Shown here in pieces: positions 28,381-39,651 of a stretch of 47,837 bases of DNA (within the stretch, counting starts at the first letter, position 1; every line of letters starts with the position of its first letter). This DNA comes from Flavobacteriales bacterium (GTDB taxonomy: Bacteria > Bacteroidota > Bacteroidia > JANQJC01), in NCBI GenBank assembly GCA_028281825.1, contig JANQJC010000019.1:1-47837 (forward strand). Direction: 5' to 3'. A model generated the notes under the pieces. The model had not been told where the DNA came from. It saw nothing but the letters and a program-made list of their open reading frames with translations, and ran no database searches. Both the position numbers and the translations under genes were made by a program.

Positions 28381-29868
28381 TTATTCTCCCCTATAGATGT
28401 GTACCCAAGCTTTGTCTTGTAAGCCAGAAGCACGCACCTTCTTCATTTCATCTAAGGCAGGTTGTAAAGCATCGTACCTCAGAGAGTATACATAATGCCA
28501 TTTACGCTTACCGTTGTACACAATGATAGCATCCACGTCTTTCTCTTTCCAAAGCTCGATAGCTCTCTCTGCCCTCTTTAATTCACGGAATGATTCAATC
28601 ACCACGTAATAACCCGCCTCCAATTCGGTTTCTTCATAAACAACCTTGCCGTCAGCACCCGTCTTCTTGATAAGGCGCATTAGCATGTCCTTAATCTGGT
28701 TAGTGTCCAGACTTGGCTGTGATTGGTTTTCTCTCAATTCCTTAATTTGATTCTCAAGCTCTTGTATTCTACGCTCGTTTTCATCTATCTCATCCTGACG
28801 CTGACCATCACCTTCTTCGTTACTATCCATTCTAGTATCCAATGAATCCACATTATTCTCTAAACTATCTGTCTTCAACCATAGCTTATCTTGATTTTCA
28901 CGAAGCTCTTCCAGTTCTTCTTCAAACTTCTTGTTGTTTGCTCCACCAAATCTAAACCCTACCATCACTTCATGAGTACCATTACTTTGGGCAGCTATTT
29001 CAGTATTTGACAACTCGTAAGCATAAGAAACACTAAACTGATCGGCCACCCTGAAACCAAGGGCTGGTATAATACCTACATCTGTGCGATAGGTACCACC
29101 TATCCATACAATATCCTTCCAGTTGATATAAAGATTACCGTCAATTTGCTGAGCGCCTCCAGGCAAGTACCTGAATAATGCTGATGGCTCTATCATCCAG
29201 GTACCATCTTTGATGTCAAAGTTATACCCTAAGTACCCCACTAGGTGACGCTTTAACTCAAAGTATCTGTCAGTCTCGTAGTCATTATAAGCCACTTTGG
29301 TTTCAAGCACCTGTGGAACCGAAACTCCTAAGTCAAGACCCTTTAATTTGTACTTTAAACCTGCATCAACATTAAAAGTAGTTCCATTGATATCGCCTGC
29401 ACCAAGTATTATCTCACTCACGTCTTGCGCTACAATGTCAGAAACATTAATCCTATTATCAATAAAGCCAACTCCGGCACCAAGAGCCAGGTAGTGGTTA
29501 CCATCTTTATTAAAGTTGAACCTTTGGGAATAGGCTACAGTTCCAGTAGTTCTTTGTAGAATGTGAGTCCTGTCAGTAGATAATGTACCACCAATGGCTT
29601 GGTTCCCGTTACCTATAGGGCTGTGCACACTTAATATGTTAGTTACGGGAGCGCCCTCAATGCCTACCCATTGCCTGCGGTGATTAAGAAATGCCGTAAA
29701 CATATCTTGCTCGCCAGCAGCTGCAGGATTTAGCAAAAACTTGTTTTGGTAATACAACCCTGATATAGGCAATTGCTGACCATAGGCTTGCACACCAATC
29801 ATAACTGCAAGTGCAGCGATAATACTCTTAAAACCTCTTTTCATTTGGACTTGTTTAAGTTTTAACAT
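28381..29868 (-). CDS. PorP/SprF-family T9SS protein fused to a coiled coil and a SPOR-like domain
   Basis: 495 residues; Met9 (29844) may be the true start because it begins the signal peptide, which ends QAYG before Gln31. Residues 31-310 are a PorP/SprF outer-membrane barrel (LPISGLYYQNKFLLNPAAAG and HRRQWVGIEGAP region near the N terminus), about the usual full length for the family. A charged coiled coil (about 313-385) and a folded region at 417-495 follow, with GYYVVIESF, AERAIELWKEKDVDAIIVYN and WHYVYSLRY, the beta-alpha-beta-beta-alpha-beta pattern of SPOR domains that bind peptidoglycan. In gliding bacteria SprF-type proteins are needed for export and anchoring of the adhesin encoded next to them; here the two secreted proteins are directly upstream. 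Confidence 0.88.
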   Translation of the reverse strand: MLKLKQVQMKRGFKSIIAALAVMIGVQAYGQQLPISGLYYQNKFLLNPAAAGEQDMFTAFLNHRRQWVGIEGAPVTNILSVHSPIGNGNQAIGGTLSTDRTHILQRTTGTVAYSQRFNFNKDGNHYLALGAGVGFIDNRINVSDIVAQDVSEIILGAGDINGTTFNVDAGLKYKLKGLDLGVSVPQVLETKVAYNDYETDRYFELKRHLVGYLGYNFDIKDGTWMIEPSALFRYLPGGAQQIDGNLYINWKDIVWIGGTYRTDVGIIPALGFRVADQFSVSYAYELSNTEIAAQSNGTHEVMVGFRFGGANNKKFEEELEELRENQDKLWLKTDSLENNVDSLDTRMDSNEEGDGQRQDEIDENERRIQELENQIKELRENQSQPSLDTNQIKDMLMRLIKKTGADGKVVYEETELEAGYYVVIESFRELKRAERAIELWKEKDVDAIIVYNGKRKWHYVYSLRYDALQPALDEMKKVRASGLQDKAWVHIYRGE

Positions 29869-29897
29869 CTTTCTGTCGCTTCAGATGGTTTATATTT

Positions 29898-32000
29898 CTA
29901 TTCGTTTAGTCTTAATAAGGTGATTGGACCTTTGTACACTTTCTCCGTGCCATCACATTTCACTACATAGTAGTAAGTACCTTCAGGCAATGGCTCACCA
30001 TCCAATGTACCGTCCCATGGTGTTGTGTACCCTCTGCTTGCGTATACCTCATTACCCCAACGATTTACGATAACGATGTCGCAATCATCATAAAGCTCAA
30101 GGTTCTTTACATACCATAACTCATTCTGTCCGTTGCCGTTTGGTGTGATTACATTGGTAGCTTCAAAAGTGTAATCAGGATCAACCGTAACAGTAACACT
30201 TGCAGAACTCTCACAACCATATTCACTTGTACCTGTTACGGTATAAGTAGTTGTTTCAAGCGGTGTTGAAGTAATACTGCTGCCATGATGAGCATCAAGG
30301 TAACTGTGTGGATACCAATGGTAATGCTCAGCGCCTGTCGCCCAAAGAGGAACATCATACCCCAAGCTAACCGTTGTATCATTGCTGATTACAAGAGTAG
30401 GCAATGGGTAAACTGTAACTTCATTAACGTCGCTTCTTGAGCAGCCGTGGCTATCAGTTATCACTACTGTATAAAAACCTGCCGTATCAACAGTTATAGT
30501 AGCCGTAGTTTCACCTGAAGACCACAGTGCAGTTTCGTCATTAGCTAAATCAACAGAAAGATAAATACTATCTCCATCACAGAAAGCAAATTCATCAGTA
30601 CTACTCTTAATGTCAGGATCAGGCAATTCCCATACATTTACAAATCCAGTAGCTGTGTCCATACAACCATCTATACTTGTAACTATTAGCTCTACGGGGT
30701 ATGTTCCTGGAGCATCATAAGTATGCACAGGGTTGATGATACTCGCACCTTCTCCATCTCCAAAGTTCCAGAAGTAAGATGCCACTGCTGTGCCGTTGTT
30801 ATTAGTCGTGTTAGTAAATACCGTCTCATCACCATAGCACACATCAGTACCTGTAAGGCCTGCAATTGGAGCCGCATAAATAGTAATGTCCCTGGTGTAT
30901 GAACTCATACATCCGTAAGAGTTTGAGCCTGTTAACTCAACCGTGTAAGTGCCTGGCCCTGGGTAGGTGTGTACAGGATTTACGTCAGCTGATGTTTCAC
31001 CATCACCAAAATCCCAAACGTAAGCTATCGTACCTACTTGGTTTATCGAGTTATTGATAAACACAACAGCTTTACCTTCACAAGCCGCGCCATCGTAATC
31101 AAAAAGTATAACTGGAAGTGGCGATACTGTTACAGTGTGTGTTACCGTATCCTTACAACCATTATCTGTAGTTACCTGCATACTAATGACGTAAGCACCC
31201 GGACTTGTAAACAAGTAAGGCACATAAGCACCAGTAGCATCATCAAACATACCATCATCATCCAAATCCCACTCATAAGACACAATGGACCCACTTGAAA
31301 CCGTACCAGTTCCAATCAACTTGGTTGAGTCACCGATACAAACATCATTGTAAGTAAAGTCTGCTGTTGGATTAGGATGAACCGTTACTGAAGAACTGTG
31401 CTCTTTTACGCAACCGTTATCTGTTACCACTTGAATACTAACGGTATAAGTTCCAGCACCACCAAAATTATACGTCACCATAGCTCCTGAACCATCGTCG
31501 TATGAACCATCATTATCCAAGTCCCAACTTTGACTCGCAATACTTCCAGTTAGCACAGATGAAGTGCTTGTAAGTGTGGTAAGGTCACCAGCACATTCGC
31601 TTGTTGCTGTAAAACCAGCAATTGCTGCTGGGTGAACAGTTACGTTTTGGTAACCAATAGTAGTGTCACTCTGGTCAGTAATTACCTGTAGCCCCACCGT
31701 AAAGTTTCCATGCCCAAGGAGTGTGAAGCCAATATTCGCCCCACTACCATCTGTGAAAATACTATCGTTGTTGAAGTCCCAGTTCCATTCAATGATATTC
31801 CCACTGCCGGCAACTGAAGTACTGTTAAAAGTAGTTTGGTCTCCTTGACACTCAGTTGTAGCTGTGAAGCTCACGGTGCTGGTGCCTCCGCCGCCACCAC
31901 CACCGCCTCCAGGCATTGCCTGAAGACTTGTGGGGCAACCAAAACTTATGATACCGGCTGCAATTGCCGCAAACATCATTTTACTTTTTTTGCTCTTCAT
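29898..32000 (-). CDS. PKD-repeat surface protein with T9SS type B (CHU_C) sorting tail
   Basis: 700 residues. Signal peptide to about Ala28, then a run of nine Gly (31-39). Five PKD domains follow (about 42-123, 125-207, 209-292, 294-374, 376-456; WDFGDGE and NPVHTY signatures in the fourth and fifth), then two Ig-like domains (457-532, 533-606) and a CHU_C/gliding-motility-associated tail (608-700; TPNGNGQNE, VNRWGNEVY, LPEGTYYYVV). Secretion by the T9SS and surface display are predicted. PKDs 1 to 3 carry DxDNDG-like acidic loops that could bind calcium. It lies 34 bases after the giant adhesin and 29 before the longest PorP/SprF frame, so one operon. Confidence 0.92.
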   Translation of the reverse strand: MKSKKSKMMFAAIAAGIISFGCPTSLQAMPGGGGGGGGGTSTVSFTATTECQGDQTTFNSTSVAGSGNIIEWNWDFNNDSIFTDGSGANIGFTLLGHGNFTVGLQVITDQSDTTIGYQNVTVHPAAIAGFTATSECAGDLTTLTSTSSVLTGSIASQSWDLDNDGSYDDGSGAMVTYNFGGAGTYTVSIQVVTDNGCVKEHSSSVTVHPNPTADFTYNDVCIGDSTKLIGTGTVSSGSIVSYEWDLDDDGMFDDATGAYVPYLFTSPGAYVISMQVTTDNGCKDTVTHTVTVSPLPVILFDYDGAACEGKAVVFINNSINQVGTIAYVWDFGDGETSADVNPVHTYPGPGTYTVELTGSNSYGCMSSYTRDITIYAAPIAGLTGTDVCYGDETVFTNTTNNNGTAVASYFWNFGDGEGASIINPVHTYDAPGTYPVELIVTSIDGCMDTATGFVNVWELPDPDIKSSTDEFAFCDGDSIYLSVDLANDETALWSSGETTATITVDTAGFYTVVITDSHGCSRSDVNEVTVYPLPTLVISNDTTVSLGYDVPLWATGAEHYHWYPHSYLDAHHGSSITSTPLETTTYTVTGTSEYGCESSASVTVTVDPDYTFEATNVITPNGNGQNELWYVKNLELYDDCDIVIVNRWGNEVYASRGYTTPWDGTLDGEPLPEGTYYYVVKCDGTEKVYKGPITLLRLNE
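31230..31778 (-). repeat. Acidic calcium-loop-like repeats in PKD domains 1-3
   Basis: Three copies of an acidic loop at residues 75-87, 160-172 and 245-257 (forms DFNNDSIFTDGSG, DLDNDGSYDDGSG, DLDDDGMFDDATG), spaced exactly 85 residues. They replace the plain WDFGDG turn of PKDs 4 and 5. Confidence 0.75.
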
Positions 32001-32034: not shown

Positions 32035-35000
32035 TTACTTCTCAATTATCAATCTCTCATGGTAAACTCCAGTATCAGTTAACACCTCTATCACATATAC
32101 CCCTGTACTGAATTCACTCTTATCAAACCTTTTCAGGTATGATGAGCCAACAACATTGTCTGCTTCTTGGTGCAGCAATTTACCATCTATTGTAACAACT
32201 CTCACCTCAAATTTTCCAATGTTATCAACAGCCTGATATTCGATTGTGAATTCTCCGTGAGTTGGGTTAGGATAGATGTTTAAGAAACTACCATCCGCTT
32301 CCTCAATTCCGGTAACGTTGATAATCAAAGTTACAACCGCTGTATCACTTCCACAGTTATTGGTAGCTATCATATACACTGTATAAACACCACTCTCTGT
32401 GTAAGTATGAACAGGGTTTTCATCAGTTGAAGTGCCACCATCATCAAAGTTCCATGAGTATGATGTAGCATCAGTAGTTTGGTTGTTGAATGCCACCGTA
32501 CCAGCGGCCGTTACCGTAGTAAAGGCAGCATCAGGTAATGGGTTATTAGCATCCAGCGTAACCGTTTCAACTACGGTACATCCTTTTTGGTCAGTGATAG
32601 TAATGGTATATGTACCAGAAGGTATATTACTAAAAGTACCAGATGATTGTGGTGTGCCACCATTCAGAGAGTACTCATAAGGTGTTGTACCACCACTACC
32701 TGCTACCGTAATGCTACCTGTTGCCTGGCCTTCACAGTTTGGATTGCTAGTATCCGTCACATCTAAAGCAAGTGGTGCCGGAGTATCAATATCCACTGTA
32801 TCGCCAGCAGTGCAGCCGTTGGCGTCTTGCACACTCAACACATAGGTAGCGGCAGCCAAACCGTTAAAGGTAGACGATGACTGATAAGTAGCTCCTCCAT
32901 CAATTGAGTATTGATATGGTGCAGTACCACCAGAGGCCAGTACGGTTAATATACCGTTAGCATCACCATGGCAATTGACAGGTGTTGCATTCACTGCATC
33001 AATAAACAATGGGTCAGTAGGCTCATTAACCGTAATTGTATCGGTATTGATACAGCCATTAGCATCCATCGTGTAGATTACATGTGTACCAACACCCAAG
33101 TCAGTAAGCACGTTGCTACCTTGGTAAGTAACACCATCGCTAGAGTATTGGTAAGCACCAGTACCGCCCGCGGCCGTTACCGTTGCAGAACCATTTGACT
33201 GACCTGTACATAGCACATTACTTACATCTACTGCGGTACTTATACCGGCACTTGGCTGAGTAATATCCACGCTTACTTCATCTGTACAGCCATTATCATC
33301 TCTCACCCTCACAGCATAAGTGCCAGCAGGAAGGTTAGAGAACACCGCTCCAGATTGGTAGTTAGCACCACCATCTATTGAGTATTCAATCGGAGCAGTG
33401 CCGCCGGTTGTTGATACTGCTATCTCTCCCGTGCTATCACCGAAGCATAATACTACCTCGAAGTCAACCGAGGCAACTAAGGCATCTGGCTCATCCACAG
33501 TCACTGTTTGACTTGCTTCACAACCATCGTCACCTATCACAGTAACCACATATGTACCACCACTCAAGCCACTAAACATGTTAGAGCTTTGAGGAGTTCC
33601 GTTATCCAGAGCGTATGAAAGTGGCGCAGTACCAAATGTCGCGTTAACAGTAAGTGAACCATTACCATTACCGTTACAGTCAACATCAACTATGTCAACA
33701 GTAAACTCAGGCGTTGGATTAACAACTACGTTAAAGCTACAAGTGTCTGCATTACCTGCTGTATCTGTAACTACGAAGGTTACAACTGTTGTTCCCACTG
33801 GGAATACAGAGTCACTGGCAAATCCTGCAATCTGCATTACTGTATCTACCATACAATTATCAGTACCAACAGGTGTAGCAAATGATACTACCGCACCATT
33901 AGTGTCTGTGCTGCAAAGCTCGATATCAGCTGGGCAAGTAATCATTGGGGCAACATCATCCACAACAGTAACATCAAAGCCACAAGTAGCAGTGTTACCT
34001 GATGAATCTGTTGCTGTATACATCACTGTTGTTGTTCCGATTGGGAAGAAGTCCCCGGGAACGTGAGTGGCAGTTAATGCCACTCCACTACAGTTATCAC
34101 TAGCTATTGGCTGTGTCCAGCTCACATTATTACCACATGAGTTAGCATCAGAAGATACCGTCATGTCAGCAGGGCAACCGCCAATTAATGGGTCTTCTAC
34201 GTCAAGAACAGTAACATCGAAACTACATGTTGACATGTTACCAGAAGTGTCCATCGCTGTGTAAGTAACCGTTGTTACACCCACCGGGAATAAGTCGCCT
34301 GGGCTATGTGTGCTATAAACCGTATCTACACCACAGTTATCAGATGCTACTGGAGGTGTCCAGCTTACAATTGCAAAACATACACCGCTTATTTGCTGGT
34401 CAACAGTAGTATCAGGGATACAAGCCCATATTGGGTCTTCCACATCATTTACTGTTATATTAAAGCTACATGTATCTGAATTTCCGAAAGCATCCACCAC
34501 TACAAACTCATTGTAAGTTGTGCCCACGGGGAACACAGAGCCACTAGCCAAGCCAGCTGTTTGTGTAACAGATTGAGATGGATCATAGAAATTAAGTGTA
34601 AACTCATTAACCTGTCCTAAATCACCACCAGCATTATCAGAAACAAAGAGCGTCCAGGTGCCATTTGGATCTGAGCCATCATTCATTGCTGCCAAATCAG
34701 TCACTGCAGTATATGTACCCCCTAATGCAGGTAAGTTACTACATACACCTTCGGCTGGGTTACCGGTACCCACTTCAAAACAGGCATCTATATCATCTCC
34801 ACTGCATCCAAACGCACTCGCCGGAAAACCTATTTGATTGATAAGTTCAACAGTAACACCGTTAGGTGATTGAAGACTAACTATCAAATCACCAGTCCAT
34901 GTATGCGATAAATCCACACAAATGCTTTCAAACAGCACATCCACACCTAGTGTAGATGGAAGTCCACTCACATTAAATGGCAACGATACTCCAGATGGGT

Positions 35001-38000
35001 CACTATCAGGAATAGCAACGGAACCTGTCCAAGTTTCGCTTACTGTAACTCCTGGCAATGGGCAGTTGTCAGTAGCAATTATGTTGTAATCATATACTGC
35101 ACCACAAACACCAGTATCGTTAGGCAATGTAGAGTCTCCAGGGCAAATAACCACCGGATCTTCCCCGTCTTCTACAAACACCATTATTGAGCAGGTATCA
35201 GCATTACCCGCTGAGTCAGTAGCATACCACTCAACCGTGGTTATACCCACCGGATAGCTGTCAGATGCATCACTTGTACCATTATAGCTATTGGTGATTA
35301 TTACACCGGGGCAGTTATCGGTTGCTGTAGCTGCCGGAAGTGATACAAAACCTTCACATAAGGTTGAGTCTGATGTTCCAGCAAATAAATTGTTACCTCC
35401 AGTACAAATCTCAAGGTTCCAAGCATTTAATGTACCTAGATCCAAACCAGTGAAGTCATCAGTGATACGTAGTATCCAAGTACCAAACATATCTTCACCA
35501 TTAAAGGCTGCTAATGCTTGCAATGGCTGATAAGCCAAATTATCATTGGCATCGCATGGCCATGTACCGTGAGTAAGGCCAGAGTCATCAAAGCCTATTA
35601 ATAGTTCAGTTGTGGCTTGCTCGCATGGGTCTTGAACAAGGTCTATCACAGTTCCACTTGGGCTTTCTAGTTGAATATCCAAGTCACCTGTCCAGGTGTG
35701 TGTGATATCAAGGCCAAGTAGATTCACATCACTTATTATTCCATGTGAACCAATGTACAACTCAGATGTTACAGTGGTACTTTCCGCAAAAGGAAGGCCT
35801 GGGTCATCTATAGCTAAACCTACATCCGTACTAGGTGTAGTGTTACAACTTAAAGTGCTTGTTGGGCAGCTAATCACAGGAATGGCTGTATCAACTACTG
35901 TTACCATTACACTGCAAGTGTCTGAGTTACCGTGTAGGTCAGTAGTAACAAATGTTTCGGCTGTAGTACCTACCGGGAACGTAGAACCAGTTCCTAAACC
36001 AGCAATCTGGGTTGTAACAGATGCTGCGTTTACATCTATCAATAAATGAACGTTAGGGAAACCAATATCCACATAGTTGGTTGGTTCAATAGCACCACAA
36101 TCTGCTGCTGCAATGTATGAAGCACCAGTTTGTCCTGCAGAGTTAGTTCCGATAAAGAATGAGTCGCCCAAAGTTTGGCCTTCTGGTGCAAACACCTCCA
36201 CAACTAACTGTGAGCTTCCAGGTATAGTAGCTACAATAGGGAATTCATAAAGGGTTAAAGCAGTATCAGGAATTGTTAACGTGTTTGTAGCAACTAGTGT
36301 TAAGTTAGCATAAGCAAGAGGTCCTGACAGGGTGTATAGGTTCACCGTTATTGGTTGGCCGTTACCACTGTTAGAAACTGCACTTTCAATGCCGAATGTA
36401 ACGCTATGCACAAAGAAGTCGTTGGTGTATCCCAGTGTTGCTAAGTCATACACCCTCAAGAAGCCATTATCAGCATGCAAACCGCCAGCATTACAAGTGA
36501 TTGCATTAAACGGTTCAACATTAGGGTCAAGCGACTGAGTTAAGTTAACCGTATCACAAGCATCGATGCCAACAGGCTCAACGTAGTTAACTACTGCATC
36601 ACATTGGCCTGCATCGTTAGGTTGAGTTACATCAATACAAGTCATCACTGGTGGCTCAACGTCGTTCACAGTTACATCAAAACTACATGTACTGGTGTTA
36701 CCACTGGCGTCGGTAATTTCAAATGTATTAGTAGTAATGCCCACTGGGAATGTAGAACCGCTTGGCAAACCAGCAGTTTGCACTGCCATTGGGGTTCCAG
36801 TAGACAGAAGAAAGTTAATAGCCAAACTTTCTAATTGACCAGCATCAAAACCTTCATTATCAGACACGAAAATTGTCCATGTTCCGTTAGGGTCGGAGCC
36901 ATCATCAAGTCCACTCAAATCAGCTACCGCAGTAAAGGTGCCACCCAAAGCTGGTAAATCACTACACACATCTTCAGCTGGATTACCAGTGCCTGGCTCG
37001 AAGCATGCGTCTATGTTGTCACCTCCGCAACCAAATGGGTCCGCAGGCACACCAGGACGGTTGATTAGTTCAATTACAGTACCATTTGGAGACTCTAGAC
37101 TTACAATCAAGTCACCAATCCAAGTATGGGTTACATCCAAACAAACACTTCCCACATTCACATCAGTTCCCAATGCGGTTCCATTAATTCCACTTACAGT
37201 AAATGGAATGGAAAGACCCAAAGAGTCACCATCAGGTATTGGCGTGGGAGTATTGAATGTTGCTGTTTCAATAATTGGAAGTGGGCAATTGTCAGAAACA
37301 GCCATGTCAGCATAAGTAAATACTGTACCACATTGACCTGGGGTATTATCCAGTGCTGTGTCACCTGGACATACAATAACAGGGTCTTCGTCATCAGTAA
37401 CTGTAACTACCATTTGGCAAGTACTGCTATTACCTGATGTATCAGTTGCTGTCCACGTAACTATTGTAGTACCTACGGGGTAGTTATCCGAAGCGTCGTT
37501 AGTATTATTGAAGTCATTGACCAATGTCAATGAACCACAGTTATCACTGACAGCCGGAGCAGGCATTGAGATAGCCGCCCCACATGCTCCAGAGTCTGTT
37601 GAGACAAACACTGTATTGTCACCACCAGTGCATATCTCGAGACTCCATCCGTTAAGCATACCAAAATCGAGCTGAGTGAAATTATCTGTTATGCTCAATA
37701 TCCAAGTACCCATCATATCTTCAGCATCAAATGCAGACAATAGTCCATCTGGCTGATAAGCCAATCCATCTGTGGGAGGACAAGGATGTGAGCCATTAGT
37801 CAAGCCCTCATCATCAAAGCTCATTAGCATATTAGGGTCTGCGCCGCAACCTTGGTCAAATAAGGTTACTGTAGTTCCATTAGGACTGGTTAATTCTATT
37901 GTTAAGTCCTGTATCCAGGTGTGAGTAATATCTACACCCAATACATTAAGGTCTGTAATAGTACCTGAAGAGCCAATAGTAAGCGTTGAAGTAATTGTTT

Positions 38001-39651
38001 GCGAGTCACCAAAAGGCAGACCTGGATCATCAATCGCCTGACCAACATCAGTGCTTGCATCTGTATTACAAACCAATGGTGATGTAGTGCAGTCAAGGAT
38101 AGGATCTTCATCATCAGTTACCGTTATTGTTTGTGTACAGAAATCAGTATTGCCAAACAAGTCTGTAACTGTCCAGGTAACAAATGTAACACCCACTGGG
38201 TAGGTATCACTTGCATCAGATGTGCCATTGTAATCATTTATAATAGTGGCATAACAGTCATCTGTATAGTCAACACCAAATACAGGCTCGGCTATAGTAA
38301 CTGCTGCGCCACATTGACCTGCATCAGCAGTTTGGTTTACATCAGCGGGGCAATTAACTATAACTGGCCCTGAGTTATCATCAATAGAAATATCAATAAT
38401 ACCAAGCCCCTGGGCACCATTATATCCCGATACCCTAATGTAATAAGTGTTACTAGCTGTAGGAGTAAATGTTATTTCAGACTGAAGGCTACAGAAATCA
38501 TCGTTACAGAAAAGAGCTGACTCAGAAACTGGGCAACCACCAGTTGCATCATAAATAGCCATCTTGGTATCATAGGCACTACCACAAAGACTTACTGTAA
38601 CATCGCAAGAAGATTCAGGAGTAATTGAATACCAAATATCATTATCAAGGTGAGAATAGCTAAAGAAGGTACAACCCGTTGGCTCATCGGGGCCATCTGT
38701 AGTTGCACAAAGGTTATTAAACAAACCAGTATAAACAGTAGGCAATGCCACAGCGTTCGCACAATCGTCGTTGCCGTCGTCACATGAAACAAGCATGTCA
38801 AAATTACCCGCATCTGTGCCAAAACCTGTCACATACACATAGTAAGTCTGTCCGTTAACGGTTGAACATAAAGTAACTTGAGAAGCCAATCCACACTCAT
38901 CATCATTGCTGTCTTCACAAACTACCGCACCGCAATTTCCACTGAAAACCCCCATTTTGGTGTCATAATCAGTATTATTTGAGCAAAGACTAAAAGTAAC
39001 TCCATTACCTGTACCAACAAAAGAATACCAAACACCAGGAGCAGTACTTAAATCATCAATGCAAGTCGTAAGTGATGCATCAGCTGAAGCAGCAGCCGTG
39101 TTACCACTTACTACATCACCACAAGCAACTGGTATTGCATTGGCACAATCATCATTACTGGGGGGTGGCGTGCAAGTCACGGTTAAATCAAAATCACCCG
39201 TTGCACCCAAGAAACCGTGTATCAGGATATAATAATCCGTTCCACTACTGGCAACGAAACTTATTGTACTTGTATTACCTGTACAATTAATGTCGTCATC
39301 ATTGCCATCCACACAAGTTAATGAACCACATGAGCCTGAATAAACAGAGATTTTTGTATCAAAGTTTGCCTGGTCACAAGTGGTGAGTGTTACAAGATTG
39401 TCATTGCCTGAAAAATAATACCAGACACCCTGACCACCATCATAAGTAGTTCCACAGTCAGCTACACCATCATCTGTAGATGCTGTTGTGGAGCCTGACA
39501 CTGTTTGGCCACACGAGAGTGTTATCGCATTGGCACAATCATCATTAGCTGGTTGAGCGAAAGCTGCAACCCCTGCCAGCATTGAGGTCGCCAATGCCAG
39601 CATTTTACTGAATTTTCTAACAAAATTCGTGGTCTCGTTGGTCTTTTTCAT
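32035..39651 (-). CDS. Giant multidomain T9SS-secreted adhesin with HYR, P-domain, SprB-repeat and PKD modules
   Basis: 2538 residues. Signal peptide 1-32, mature start Gln33. Three pre-peptidase-like modules, each opening NDDCANA (36, 166, 294). Nine HYR domains span 427-1980. Four carry an inserted proprotein-convertase P-domain (about 528-676, 795-955, 1267-1418, 1538-1690; DITHTW and SPNGT motifs) and one an unknown beta-sandwich-like insert (1043-1212). Five SprB repeats (about 1981-2370), one PKD (2373-2447, NFDDGG, NPVHTY) and a type A T9SS tail (2455-2538, LNIYPNPTHGEFTI). No enzyme domain is seen, so the likely role is a surface or gliding adhesin (inference). A strong AGGAGG site precedes the ATG. 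Opposite-strand ORFs here are shadows. Confidence 0.93.
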   Translation of the reverse strand: MKKTNETTNFVRKFSKMLALATSMLAGVAAFAQPANDDCANAITLSCGQTVSGSTTASTDDGVADCGTTYDGGQGVWYYFSGNDNLVTLTTCDQANFDTKISVYSGSCGSLTCVDGNDDDINCTGNTSTISFVASSGTDYYILIHGFLGATGDFDLTVTCTPPPSNDDCANAIPVACGDVVSGNTAAASADASLTTCIDDLSTAPGVWYSFVGTGNGVTFSLCSNNTDYDTKMGVFSGNCGAVVCEDSNDDECGLASQVTLCSTVNGQTYYVYVTGFGTDAGNFDMLVSCDDGNDDCANAVALPTVYTGLFNNLCATTDGPDEPTGCTFFSYSHLDNDIWYSITPESSCDVTVSLCGSAYDTKMAIYDATGGCPVSESALFCNDDFCSLQSEITFTPTASNTYYIRVSGYNGAQGLGIIDISIDDNSGPVIVNCPADVNQTADAGQCGAAVTIAEPVFGVDYTDDCYATIINDYNGTSDASDTYPVGVTFVTWTVTDLFGNTDFCTQTITVTDDEDPILDCTTSPLVCNTDASTDVGQAIDDPGLPFGDSQTITSTLTIGSSGTITDLNVLGVDITHTWIQDLTIELTSPNGTTVTLFDQGCGADPNMLMSFDDEGLTNGSHPCPPTDGLAYQPDGLLSAFDAEDMMGTWILSITDNFTQLDFGMLNGWSLEICTGGDNTVFVSTDSGACGAAISMPAPAVSDNCGSLTLVNDFNNTNDASDNYPVGTTIVTWTATDTSGNSSTCQMVVTVTDDEDPVIVCPGDTALDNTPGQCGTVFTYADMAVSDNCPLPIIETATFNTPTPIPDGDSLGLSIPFTVSGINGTALGTDVNVGSVCLDVTHTWIGDLIVSLESPNGTVIELINRPGVPADPFGCGGDNIDACFEPGTGNPAEDVCSDLPALGGTFTAVADLSGLDDGSDPNGTWTIFVSDNEGFDAGQLESLAINFLLSTGTPMAVQTAGLPSGSTFPVGITTNTFEITDASGNTSTCSFDVTVNDVEPPVMTCIDVTQPNDAGQCDAVVNYVEPVGIDACDTVNLTQSLDPNVEPFNAITCNAGGLHADNGFLRVYDLATLGYTNDFFVHSVTFGIESAVSNSGNGQPITVNLYTLSGPLAYANLTLVATNTLTIPDTALTLYEFPIVATIPGSSQLVVEVFAPEGQTLGDSFFIGTNSAGQTGASYIAAADCGAIEPTNYVDIGFPNVHLLIDVNAASVTTQIAGLGTGSTFPVGTTAETFVTTDLHGNSDTCSVMVTVVDTAIPVISCPTSTLSCNTTPSTDVGLAIDDPGLPFAESTTVTSELYIGSHGIISDVNLLGLDITHTWTGDLDIQLESPSGTVIDLVQDPCEQATTELLIGFDDSGLTHGTWPCDANDNLAYQPLQALAAFNGEDMFGTWILRITDDFTGLDLGTLNAWNLEICTGGNNLFAGTSDSTLCEGFVSLPAATATDNCPGVIITNSYNGTSDASDSYPVGITTVEWYATDSAGNADTCSIMVFVEDGEDPVVICPGDSTLPNDTGVCGAVYDYNIIATDNCPLPGVTVSETWTGSVAIPDSDPSGVSLPFNVSGLPSTLGVDVLFESICVDLSHTWTGDLIVSLQSPNGVTVELINQIGFPASAFGCSGDDIDACFEVGTGNPAEGVCSNLPALGGTYTAVTDLAAMNDGSDPNGTWTLFVSDNAGGDLGQVNEFTLNFYDPSQSVTQTAGLASGSVFPVGTTYNEFVVVDAFGNSDTCSFNITVNDVEDPIWACIPDTTVDQQISGVCFAIVSWTPPVASDNCGVDTVYSTHSPGDLFPVGVTTVTYTAMDTSGNMSTCSFDVTVLDVEDPLIGGCPADMTVSSDANSCGNNVSWTQPIASDNCSGVALTATHVPGDFFPIGTTTVMYTATDSSGNTATCGFDVTVVDDVAPMITCPADIELCSTDTNGAVVSFATPVGTDNCMVDTVMQIAGFASDSVFPVGTTVVTFVVTDTAGNADTCSFNVVVNPTPEFTVDIVDVDCNGNGNGSLTVNATFGTAPLSYALDNGTPQSSNMFSGLSGGTYVVTVIGDDGCEASQTVTVDEPDALVASVDFEVVLCFGDSTGEIAVSTTGGTAPIEYSIDGGANYQSGAVFSNLPAGTYAVRVRDDNGCTDEVSVDITQPSAGISTAVDVSNVLCTGQSNGSATVTAAGGTGAYQYSSDGVTYQGSNVLTDLGVGTHVIYTMDANGCINTDTITVNEPTDPLFIDAVNATPVNCHGDANGILTVLASGGTAPYQYSIDGGATYQSSSTFNGLAAATYVLSVQDANGCTAGDTVDIDTPAPLALDVTDTSNPNCEGQATGSITVAGSGGTTPYEYSLNGGTPQSSGTFSNIPSGTYTITITDQKGCTVVETVTLDANNPLPDAAFTTVTAAGTVAFNNQTTDATSYSWNFDDGGTSTDENPVHTYTESGVYTVYMIATNNCGSDTAVVTLIINVTGIEEADGSFLNIYPNPTHGEFTIEYQAVDNIGKFEVRVVTIDGKLLHQEADNVVGSSYLKRFDKSEFSTGVYVIEVLTDTGVYHERLIIEK
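32542..33711 (-). repeat. Five tandem SprB repeats
   Basis: Residues about 1981-2370 of the adhesin: five units of 76-79 residues, each with a Cys-Gly/Asn-Gly segment (CNGNGNGSL, CFGDSTGEI, CTGQSNGSA, CHGDANGIL, CEGQATGSI), GGTAPYxYS and DxxGC. This matches the SprB repeat family of gliding adhesins. Confidence 0.88.
34438..35889 (-). repeat. Second copy of the duplicated HYR/P-domain block
   Basis: Residues 1255-1738 of the adhesin repeat the layout of residues 515-997: HYR split by a type A P-domain, then HYR split by a type B P-domain. Long identical strings such as IDDPGLPF, DITHTW, LEICTGG, ACFE-GTGNPAE and SDPNGTWT are shared. Confidence 0.85.
36661..38109 (-). repeat. First copy of the duplicated HYR/P-domain block
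   Basis: Residues 515-997 of the adhesin. Nearly the same length as the second copy (1449 against 1452 bases) and separated from it by one HYR domain with a different insert. Confidence 0.85.

Follow-up and report, generated by a model that had tools for sequence, protein, structure and literature searches.

HYR domains interrupted by complete domains in a T9SS adhesin of an uncultured Bacteroidia bacterium: probable split-domain hosts

The adhesin gene and its surroundings

The window, i.e. the whole stretch of 47,837 nucleotides that was analysed, comes from an uncultured Bacteroidia bacterium. On its minus strand, at 32035-39651, an intact reading frame of 2538 amino acids encodes a giant surface protein, a T9SS adhesin; all the features described below lie on the same strand. 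Pfam recognises in this protein ten HYR stretches, four P_proprotein domains and five SprB stretches, as well as a PKD domain and a T9SS type A sorting domain. Nine HYR domains extend from aa 425 to about aa 1980, and the interrupted ones are HYR2 to HYR6. HYR1 (aa 425-512; 38116..38379; PF02494 at 38119-38379, profile positions 2-81) and HYR7, HYR8 and HYR9 (aa 1735-1980; 33712..34449; PF02494 at 34207-34446, 33964-34203 and 33721-33963) are uninterrupted, and these matches uphold what an earlier note on this DNA had read in them.

The HYR domains are followed by the SprB repeat region (about aa 1985-2370; 32542..33699; PF13573 in five stretches), the PKD domain (aa 2370-2442; 32326..32544; PF18911, 51.4 bits) and the T9SS type A C-terminal sorting domain (aa 2459-2536; 32044..32277; PF18962, 54.5 bits; TIGR04183 of NCBIfam, 40.5 bits). 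The same genome encodes a full PorU, the T9SS sortase (1436 bits), and the adhesin, with its C-terminal Por_Secre_tail and a genomic sortase, qualifies as T9SS type A cargo. The C terminus carries this sorting domain and has no match to RTX families in Pfam or NCBIfam, which places the protein outside the RTX adhesins. Downstream of the adhesin (28381-32000, minus strand) there are a PKD/CHU_C protein and a PorP/SprF-like protein, the latter with a predicted coiled coil and a weak SPOR match; both are probably a second T9SS surface pair.

Five consecutive nested HYR domains

HYR2 to HYR6 occupy aa 513-1734 (34450-38115), and each of them holds a complete second domain. The adhesin has, in this sense, split domains: HYR stalk domains interrupted in sequence by complete autonomous domains. 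The inserts are found at two places of the host, slot 1 (after strand A, which contains Cys1) and slot 2 (after the DNC turn, which contains Cys3), whereas a third one, slot 3, located between strands B and C, is seen in relatives.

Two nests use slot 1. In HYR2 (aa 513-752; 37396..38115) the host consists of an N part (aa 513-521) and a C part (aa 679-752), and the insert that follows Cys1 is a type A P-domain (aa 522-678; 37618..38088; PF01483, 51.1 bits). HYR5 (aa 1254-1494; 35170..35892; host parts aa 1254-1262 and 1420-1494) contains a type A P-domain as well (aa 1263-1419; 35395..35865; PF01483, 48 bits), which is a duplicate of the HYR2 insert (tree support 98/97).

The other three nests use slot 2. 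HYR3 (aa 753-995; 36667..37395; host parts aa 753-792 and 955-995) is opened after DNCPLP by a type B P-domain (aa 793-954; 36790..37275; PF01483, 40.5 bits), whose duplicate (tree support 100/99) is found in HYR6 (nest aa 1495-1734; 34450..35169; host parts aa 1495-1533 and 1692-1734; insert aa 1534-1691; 34579..35052; PF01483, 43.8 bits). HYR4 (aa 996-1253; 35893..36666; host parts aa 996-1034 and 1210-1253) holds an autonomous jelly-roll-like domain with the pattern NSVxC ... DIGFPxxH (aa 1035-1209; 36025..36549), of which free-standing homologues exist. The PF01483 scores of the four P-domain inserts (39-51 bits) are well beyond the threshold of 21 bits, and types A and B are recognisably related (BLASTP E 6e-13).

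The earlier note had described five consecutive interrupted HYR domains (residues 515-1738; 34438-38109), and this is confirmed, with boundaries at aa 513-1734, by complementary halves and joined-half matches. Its location of the P-domains of HYR3 and HYR6 right after the DNCPLP turn holds, and so does that of the P-domains of HYR2 and HYR5 after the opening Cys, but the two P-domain types that it told apart are recognisably related. The halves keep the HYR pattern as it had stated, but the ending FPVGTT or YPVGTT does not apply to HYR3 and HYR5, which read PVGIT.

The domain inserted into HYR4

The HYR4 insert has no match in Pfam or NCBIfam. Relatives of this domain stand alone in the small proteins L051, L052 and L053, and they also form part of large proteins in a Thermoflexales bacterium and in Antribacter soli. 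Free-standing homologues open with a strand xTxSxSQxI, and for this reason the insert is considered to start near aa 1035 (VNLTQS...). The earlier note was thus right about an unrecognised domain at slot 2, but not about its start after DACDTVNLTQSLDP. The NSVxC...DIGFPxxH domain is widespread (Bacteroidota, Chloroflexota, Actinomycetota and an Alcanivoracaceae bin), with examples in L049 (aa 1875-2052), L050 (aa 1080-1248) and L051-L053.

Profile evidence on the two halves

A different explanation of this layout is that of serial domains, in which the HYR fragments would be independent mini-domains or linkers between P-domains. This could account for the fact that Pfam matches only the C part in intact nests (PF02494, 26.2-38.5 bits), with matches that start at profile position 42-43 in the unedited C halves of HYR3, HYR4 and HYR6, and for the slot-1 N part being short (about 9 residues) and of weak score. 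However, a local model of HYR, derived from uninterrupted domains, aligns with both parts of each slot-2 host, in complementary halves with little overlap: 1-44 and 42-81 in HYR3, 1-45 and 40-81 in HYR4, and 1-46 and 39-81 in HYR6. For slot 1 the ranges are 1-19 and 13-81 (HYR2) and 1-21 and 17-81 (HYR5).

When the inserts are excised, every one of the five hosts gives a single PF02494 match that runs from position 2 or 3 to 80 or 81, at 33.1-49.1 bits: 41.5 bits for HYR2 (3-81), 49.1 for HYR3 (2-81), 46.8 for HYR4, 35.7 for HYR5 (2-80) and 33.1 for HYR6 (3-81). The gathering score of the family is 21.7 bits; all five excised hosts exceed it over the full length and therefore belong to the HYR family.

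Cysteines on opposite sides of the inserts

The cysteines of 446 distinct uninterrupted HYR domains, from the survey loci of the source genome and of others, were compared. Of these, 411 have Cys1 (column 9) as well as Cys4 (column 75) and 34 have neither, with a single discordant case (Fisher p 3e-50, a value that overstates independence since HYR sequences are related; the paired losses are nonetheless spread over 11 proteins from 10 loci). Because they are present or absent together, both residues are most likely bonded by a disulfide. All 21 tabulated nests, including the five of the adhesin, retain Cys1 and Cys4 on opposite sides of the insert, and this stands against serial domains, given that in ordinary HYR domains the two cysteines are lost only jointly.

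HYR domains have a further Cys at column 21, 22 or 53, never two of these together, which presumably pairs with column 37. This mutual exclusion suggests that the three columns are alternative partners of column 37 and that HYR domains fall into two or more disulfide classes. Near the ends of the type A P-domain there is a separate Cys pair that belongs to the insert, and in a relative's nest (46_c) this pair has been lost together while the host pair is kept.

Structure models and fold matches

Structure prediction, proposed by the earlier note as a check on the nesting, was run with AlphaFold2 on two constructs, and the outcome differs between them. The HYR4 nest alone, modelled from nine aligned sequences, reaches a pLDDT of 82 and a pTM of 0.74; it is predicted to be a compact two-domain unit, which speaks against serial domains. 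The three-nest construct from HYR4 to HYR6 has a mean pLDDT of 69 and a pTM of only 0.38, with values mostly of 70-90 in HYR5 and HYR6 and a poor HYR4 insert. Uninterrupted HYR domains were left out of the structure alignment because their N halves got misplaced among the nests.

In Foldseek comparisons the P-domain part superposes on that of furin at 2.7-2.8 A over about 160 columns, as corresponds to a P-domain fold. For the HYR4 nest the resemblances are weak: an entry with the Cwp84 protease and a lectin-like domain (TMq 0.43), PHR domains, a carbohydrate-esterase CBM and the BC2L-C lectin. At a low rank (E 0.06) there is also a carbohydrate-binding module of Aeromonas salmonicida together with its split domain. 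No solved HYR structure was found by sequence search.

Nested HYR domains in other genomes

The source bacterium is the sole representative of its order in the genome collection. Among 395 genomes of the class, just one other family group (G003, G086 and G049) has matches to the HYR3 and HYR6 nests over their whole length, and its adhesins contain the HYR4, HYR5 and HYR6 nests as well as additional ones. These include a slot-1 insert with no Pfam match and, at slot 3, an insert that resembles choice-of-anchor R, a weak likeness (NCBIfam 24.1 bits, under the cut-off of 30).

The HYR5 host of G049 shares 67-69% identity with those of G003 and G086, and at slot 1, where these two have a P-domain, it has the choice-of-anchor-R-like insert. 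This insert has no significant similarity to the P-domain inserts of G003 and G086, and its homology is instead with the insert that HYR7 holds at slot 3 (E 1e-35). It follows that one insert family is found at two slots and that one slot accepts different families. The HYR7 of our adhesin and the interrupted HYR7 of these relatives were also considered as proof of an empty site, but this was dropped, as they are 44-47% identical and orthologous by position only.

An empty site is found in G706, where a P-domain is inserted at slot 1 and the neighbouring gene carries the same HYR empty, with 74 of 91 host residues identical (81%) and a clean gap of 150 residues. The host is a divergent HYR, whose uninterrupted form reaches 15.4 bits with Pfam (below the cut-off) and matches the local model full-length at 34 bits. 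An uninterrupted paralogue that adjoins an interrupted one speaks against serial domains. This explanation is rejected on the basis of the complementary halves, the co-retention of the cysteines, the joined-half matches and the empty-site paralogue, and we consider it very improbable. In the same G706 gene, a HYR-like domain of L140, an ORF of 1436 aa, is seemingly interrupted twice (aa 755-1178), by an insert of the EDFEGGVPAGW type at slot 1 and by another one ahead of the GLVFTC strand.

The survey was extended to 20 further HYR-rich loci, a non-random set picked for large ORFs, in which most HYR domains are uninterrupted and split ones were found in G001, G275 and G305, the insert of G305 being a Laminin_G_3 domain (106 bits). 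A further slot-1 insert occurs in G150, which belongs to the family of G003, and G141 has three nests within one protein, one of them with a P-domain at slot 3. Interrupted HYR domains, which the earlier note had proposed to look for in other Bacteroidota, are present in several genomes, e.g. G003/G086/G049, G001, G275, G305, G141 and G706. The other HYR proteins of the source genome, encoded on four contigs, are ordinary, and no convincing split HYR was found among them in the survey. Some candidates were discarded as nested HYR domains (G165, G221, G141:C36 and G275:C4, which are P-domain/PKD or protease-like proteins), and the low-scoring split flags of L010, L046 frame 0, L109, L110 and L114 were excluded from the counts.

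P-domains also seem to be nested in a different Ig-like host, with the pattern FSGLxAxYC ... GxFxGxGV [P-domain] FxPxxAGTHTIxYT...GC, in L068 (aa 430-640 and 740-960) and L069 (aa 430-640), so that split hosts would extend beyond HYR.

History of the insertions

Trees of the inserts group HYR2 with HYR5 (98/97) and HYR3 with HYR6 (100/99) within the adhesin, and therefore, in the lineage of the adhesin, either two adjoining nests were copied as a pair or the inserts were homogenised. Five independent insertions are rejected by this pairing, and the five nests reflect about three insertion histories, with three combinations of insert and slot. Trees of the hosts are too weak or long-branched to show any incongruence between insert and host. 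The recurrence at two fixed loops claimed by the earlier note stands as repeated use of the same loops, but part of it is due to duplication inside the adhesin and a third slot is used in relatives.

It could be argued from these duplicates that HYR has no special role, and that any abundant repeat domain is hit by chance and a few cases are then copied. Related to this, most of the surveyed HYR domains are uninterrupted, and HYR is not unique as a host if the P-domains of L068 and L069 are nested as they seem to be. Nevertheless, many combinations of insert and slot are distributed across several other family groups, and the exchange at a conserved slot indicates that the same loops have been used repeatedly; chance insertion is for these reasons regarded as unlikely.

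Proposed role of the nested domains

The suggestion of the earlier note that HYR acts as a scaffold with recurrent insertion at fixed loops is favoured by the complementarity of the halves, the joined scores, the covariation of Cys1 and Cys4, the empty site, the exchange of inserts, the independent cases and the HYR4 model. We consider it probable that the HYR domains of this T9SS adhesin act as split domains that present the inserted ones. The nesting, the slots, the exchange, the empty site and the co-retained cysteines can be read from sequence, while the disulfide, the sideways projection and the binding of ligands are inferred. In such an arrangement, the chain would start the Ig-like sandwich of the HYR and exit through a permissive loop (slot 1, 2 or 3); a complete second domain would then fold, with its two ends near each other, and the chain would re-enter to complete the HYR, which the putative Cys1-Cys4 disulfide would seal. 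The inserts would hang sideways off the HYR rod, and varied families could be exchanged at one slot because what mainly matters would be the closeness of the insert ends.

Most likely, the inserts would offer surfaces that bind ligands, either glycans or surface proteins, as suggested by the analogy with RTX adhesins, the weak lectin-like fold resemblance and the Laminin_G_3 case. P-domains stabilise partner domains in proprotein convertases, and it is conceivable that real nests have here a structural function, with inserts that make the rod wider or stiffer, or shield it, and that do not take part in binding. The inserts are not known to bind any ligand and do not evolve consistently faster than their hosts, which would agree with such a function. 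On the other hand, the diversity of the inserts and their exchange at one slot, the Laminin_G_3 insert, the weak lectin-like resemblance of the HYR4 insert and the RTX precedent fit binding better, and a purely structural role seems improbable.

Comparison with known systems

In ordinary HYR-containing adhesins (PF02494, PF23237) tandem HYR domains with the same Cys1-Cys4 pattern are uninterrupted and have about 80 residues, whereas the nested ones of the adhesin hold 150-175 extra residues at defined places. In pilins and adhesins of the RrgA type, a vWFA or similar binding domain is nested in an Ig-like stalk domain; these proteins differ from the HYR adhesin in that they usually have a single insert, as well as other folds and another anchoring.

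The closest parallel is found in the RTX adhesins AhLap of Aeromonas hydrophila, FrhA of Vibrio cholerae and MpIBP, in which an Ig-like split domain is interrupted by a complete domain that buds sideways, with adjacent N and C termini (PMC12077191, PMC10865825). The types of insert described are CBM, PA14, RTX roll and vWFA. In these adhesins the arrangement presents ligand-binding modules, for which emergence from a split domain has served as a search criterion (PMC12077191, PMC10865825). The HYR adhesin is likewise long and repetitive, and its stalk domains, predicted to be Ig-like, are interrupted by complete and varied inserts. However, RTX adhesins are type I-secreted, calcium-dependent and Proteobacterial, with one or few splits near the C terminus, whereas the HYR adhesin is a T9SS protein with cysteine-bearing hosts, five consecutive splits and several slots. 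Neither HYR nor Bacteroidota is mentioned in these two papers (PMC12077191, PMC10865825), and in the open-access literature no relevant description of HYR with an insertion, a P-domain or T9SS was found. The earlier note did not know of a description of the nested architecture; RTX adhesins already show the split-domain principle, but for T9SS adhesins this literature gave no account of HYR as a split domain with several slots.

Implications

Standard annotation names half of an HYR and leaves the insert nameless, as in the case of the HYR4 insert. HYR halves separated by 130-300 residues provide a rule by which giant surface proteins of Bacteroidota can be searched for candidate ligand-binding domains, and the exchange of inserts between related genomes makes the modular evolution of adhesion testable. 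HYR slots are, moreover, natural sites for engineered display. From a more general point of view, we give an even chance to the idea that HYR serves the T9SS adhesins of Bacteroidota in general as a plug-in scaffold, with at least three permissive slots in which unrelated inserts would be gained, lost or exchanged as cassettes on a conserved host; this would constitute a combinatorial route to new adhesion specificities, independent of the RTX split domains.
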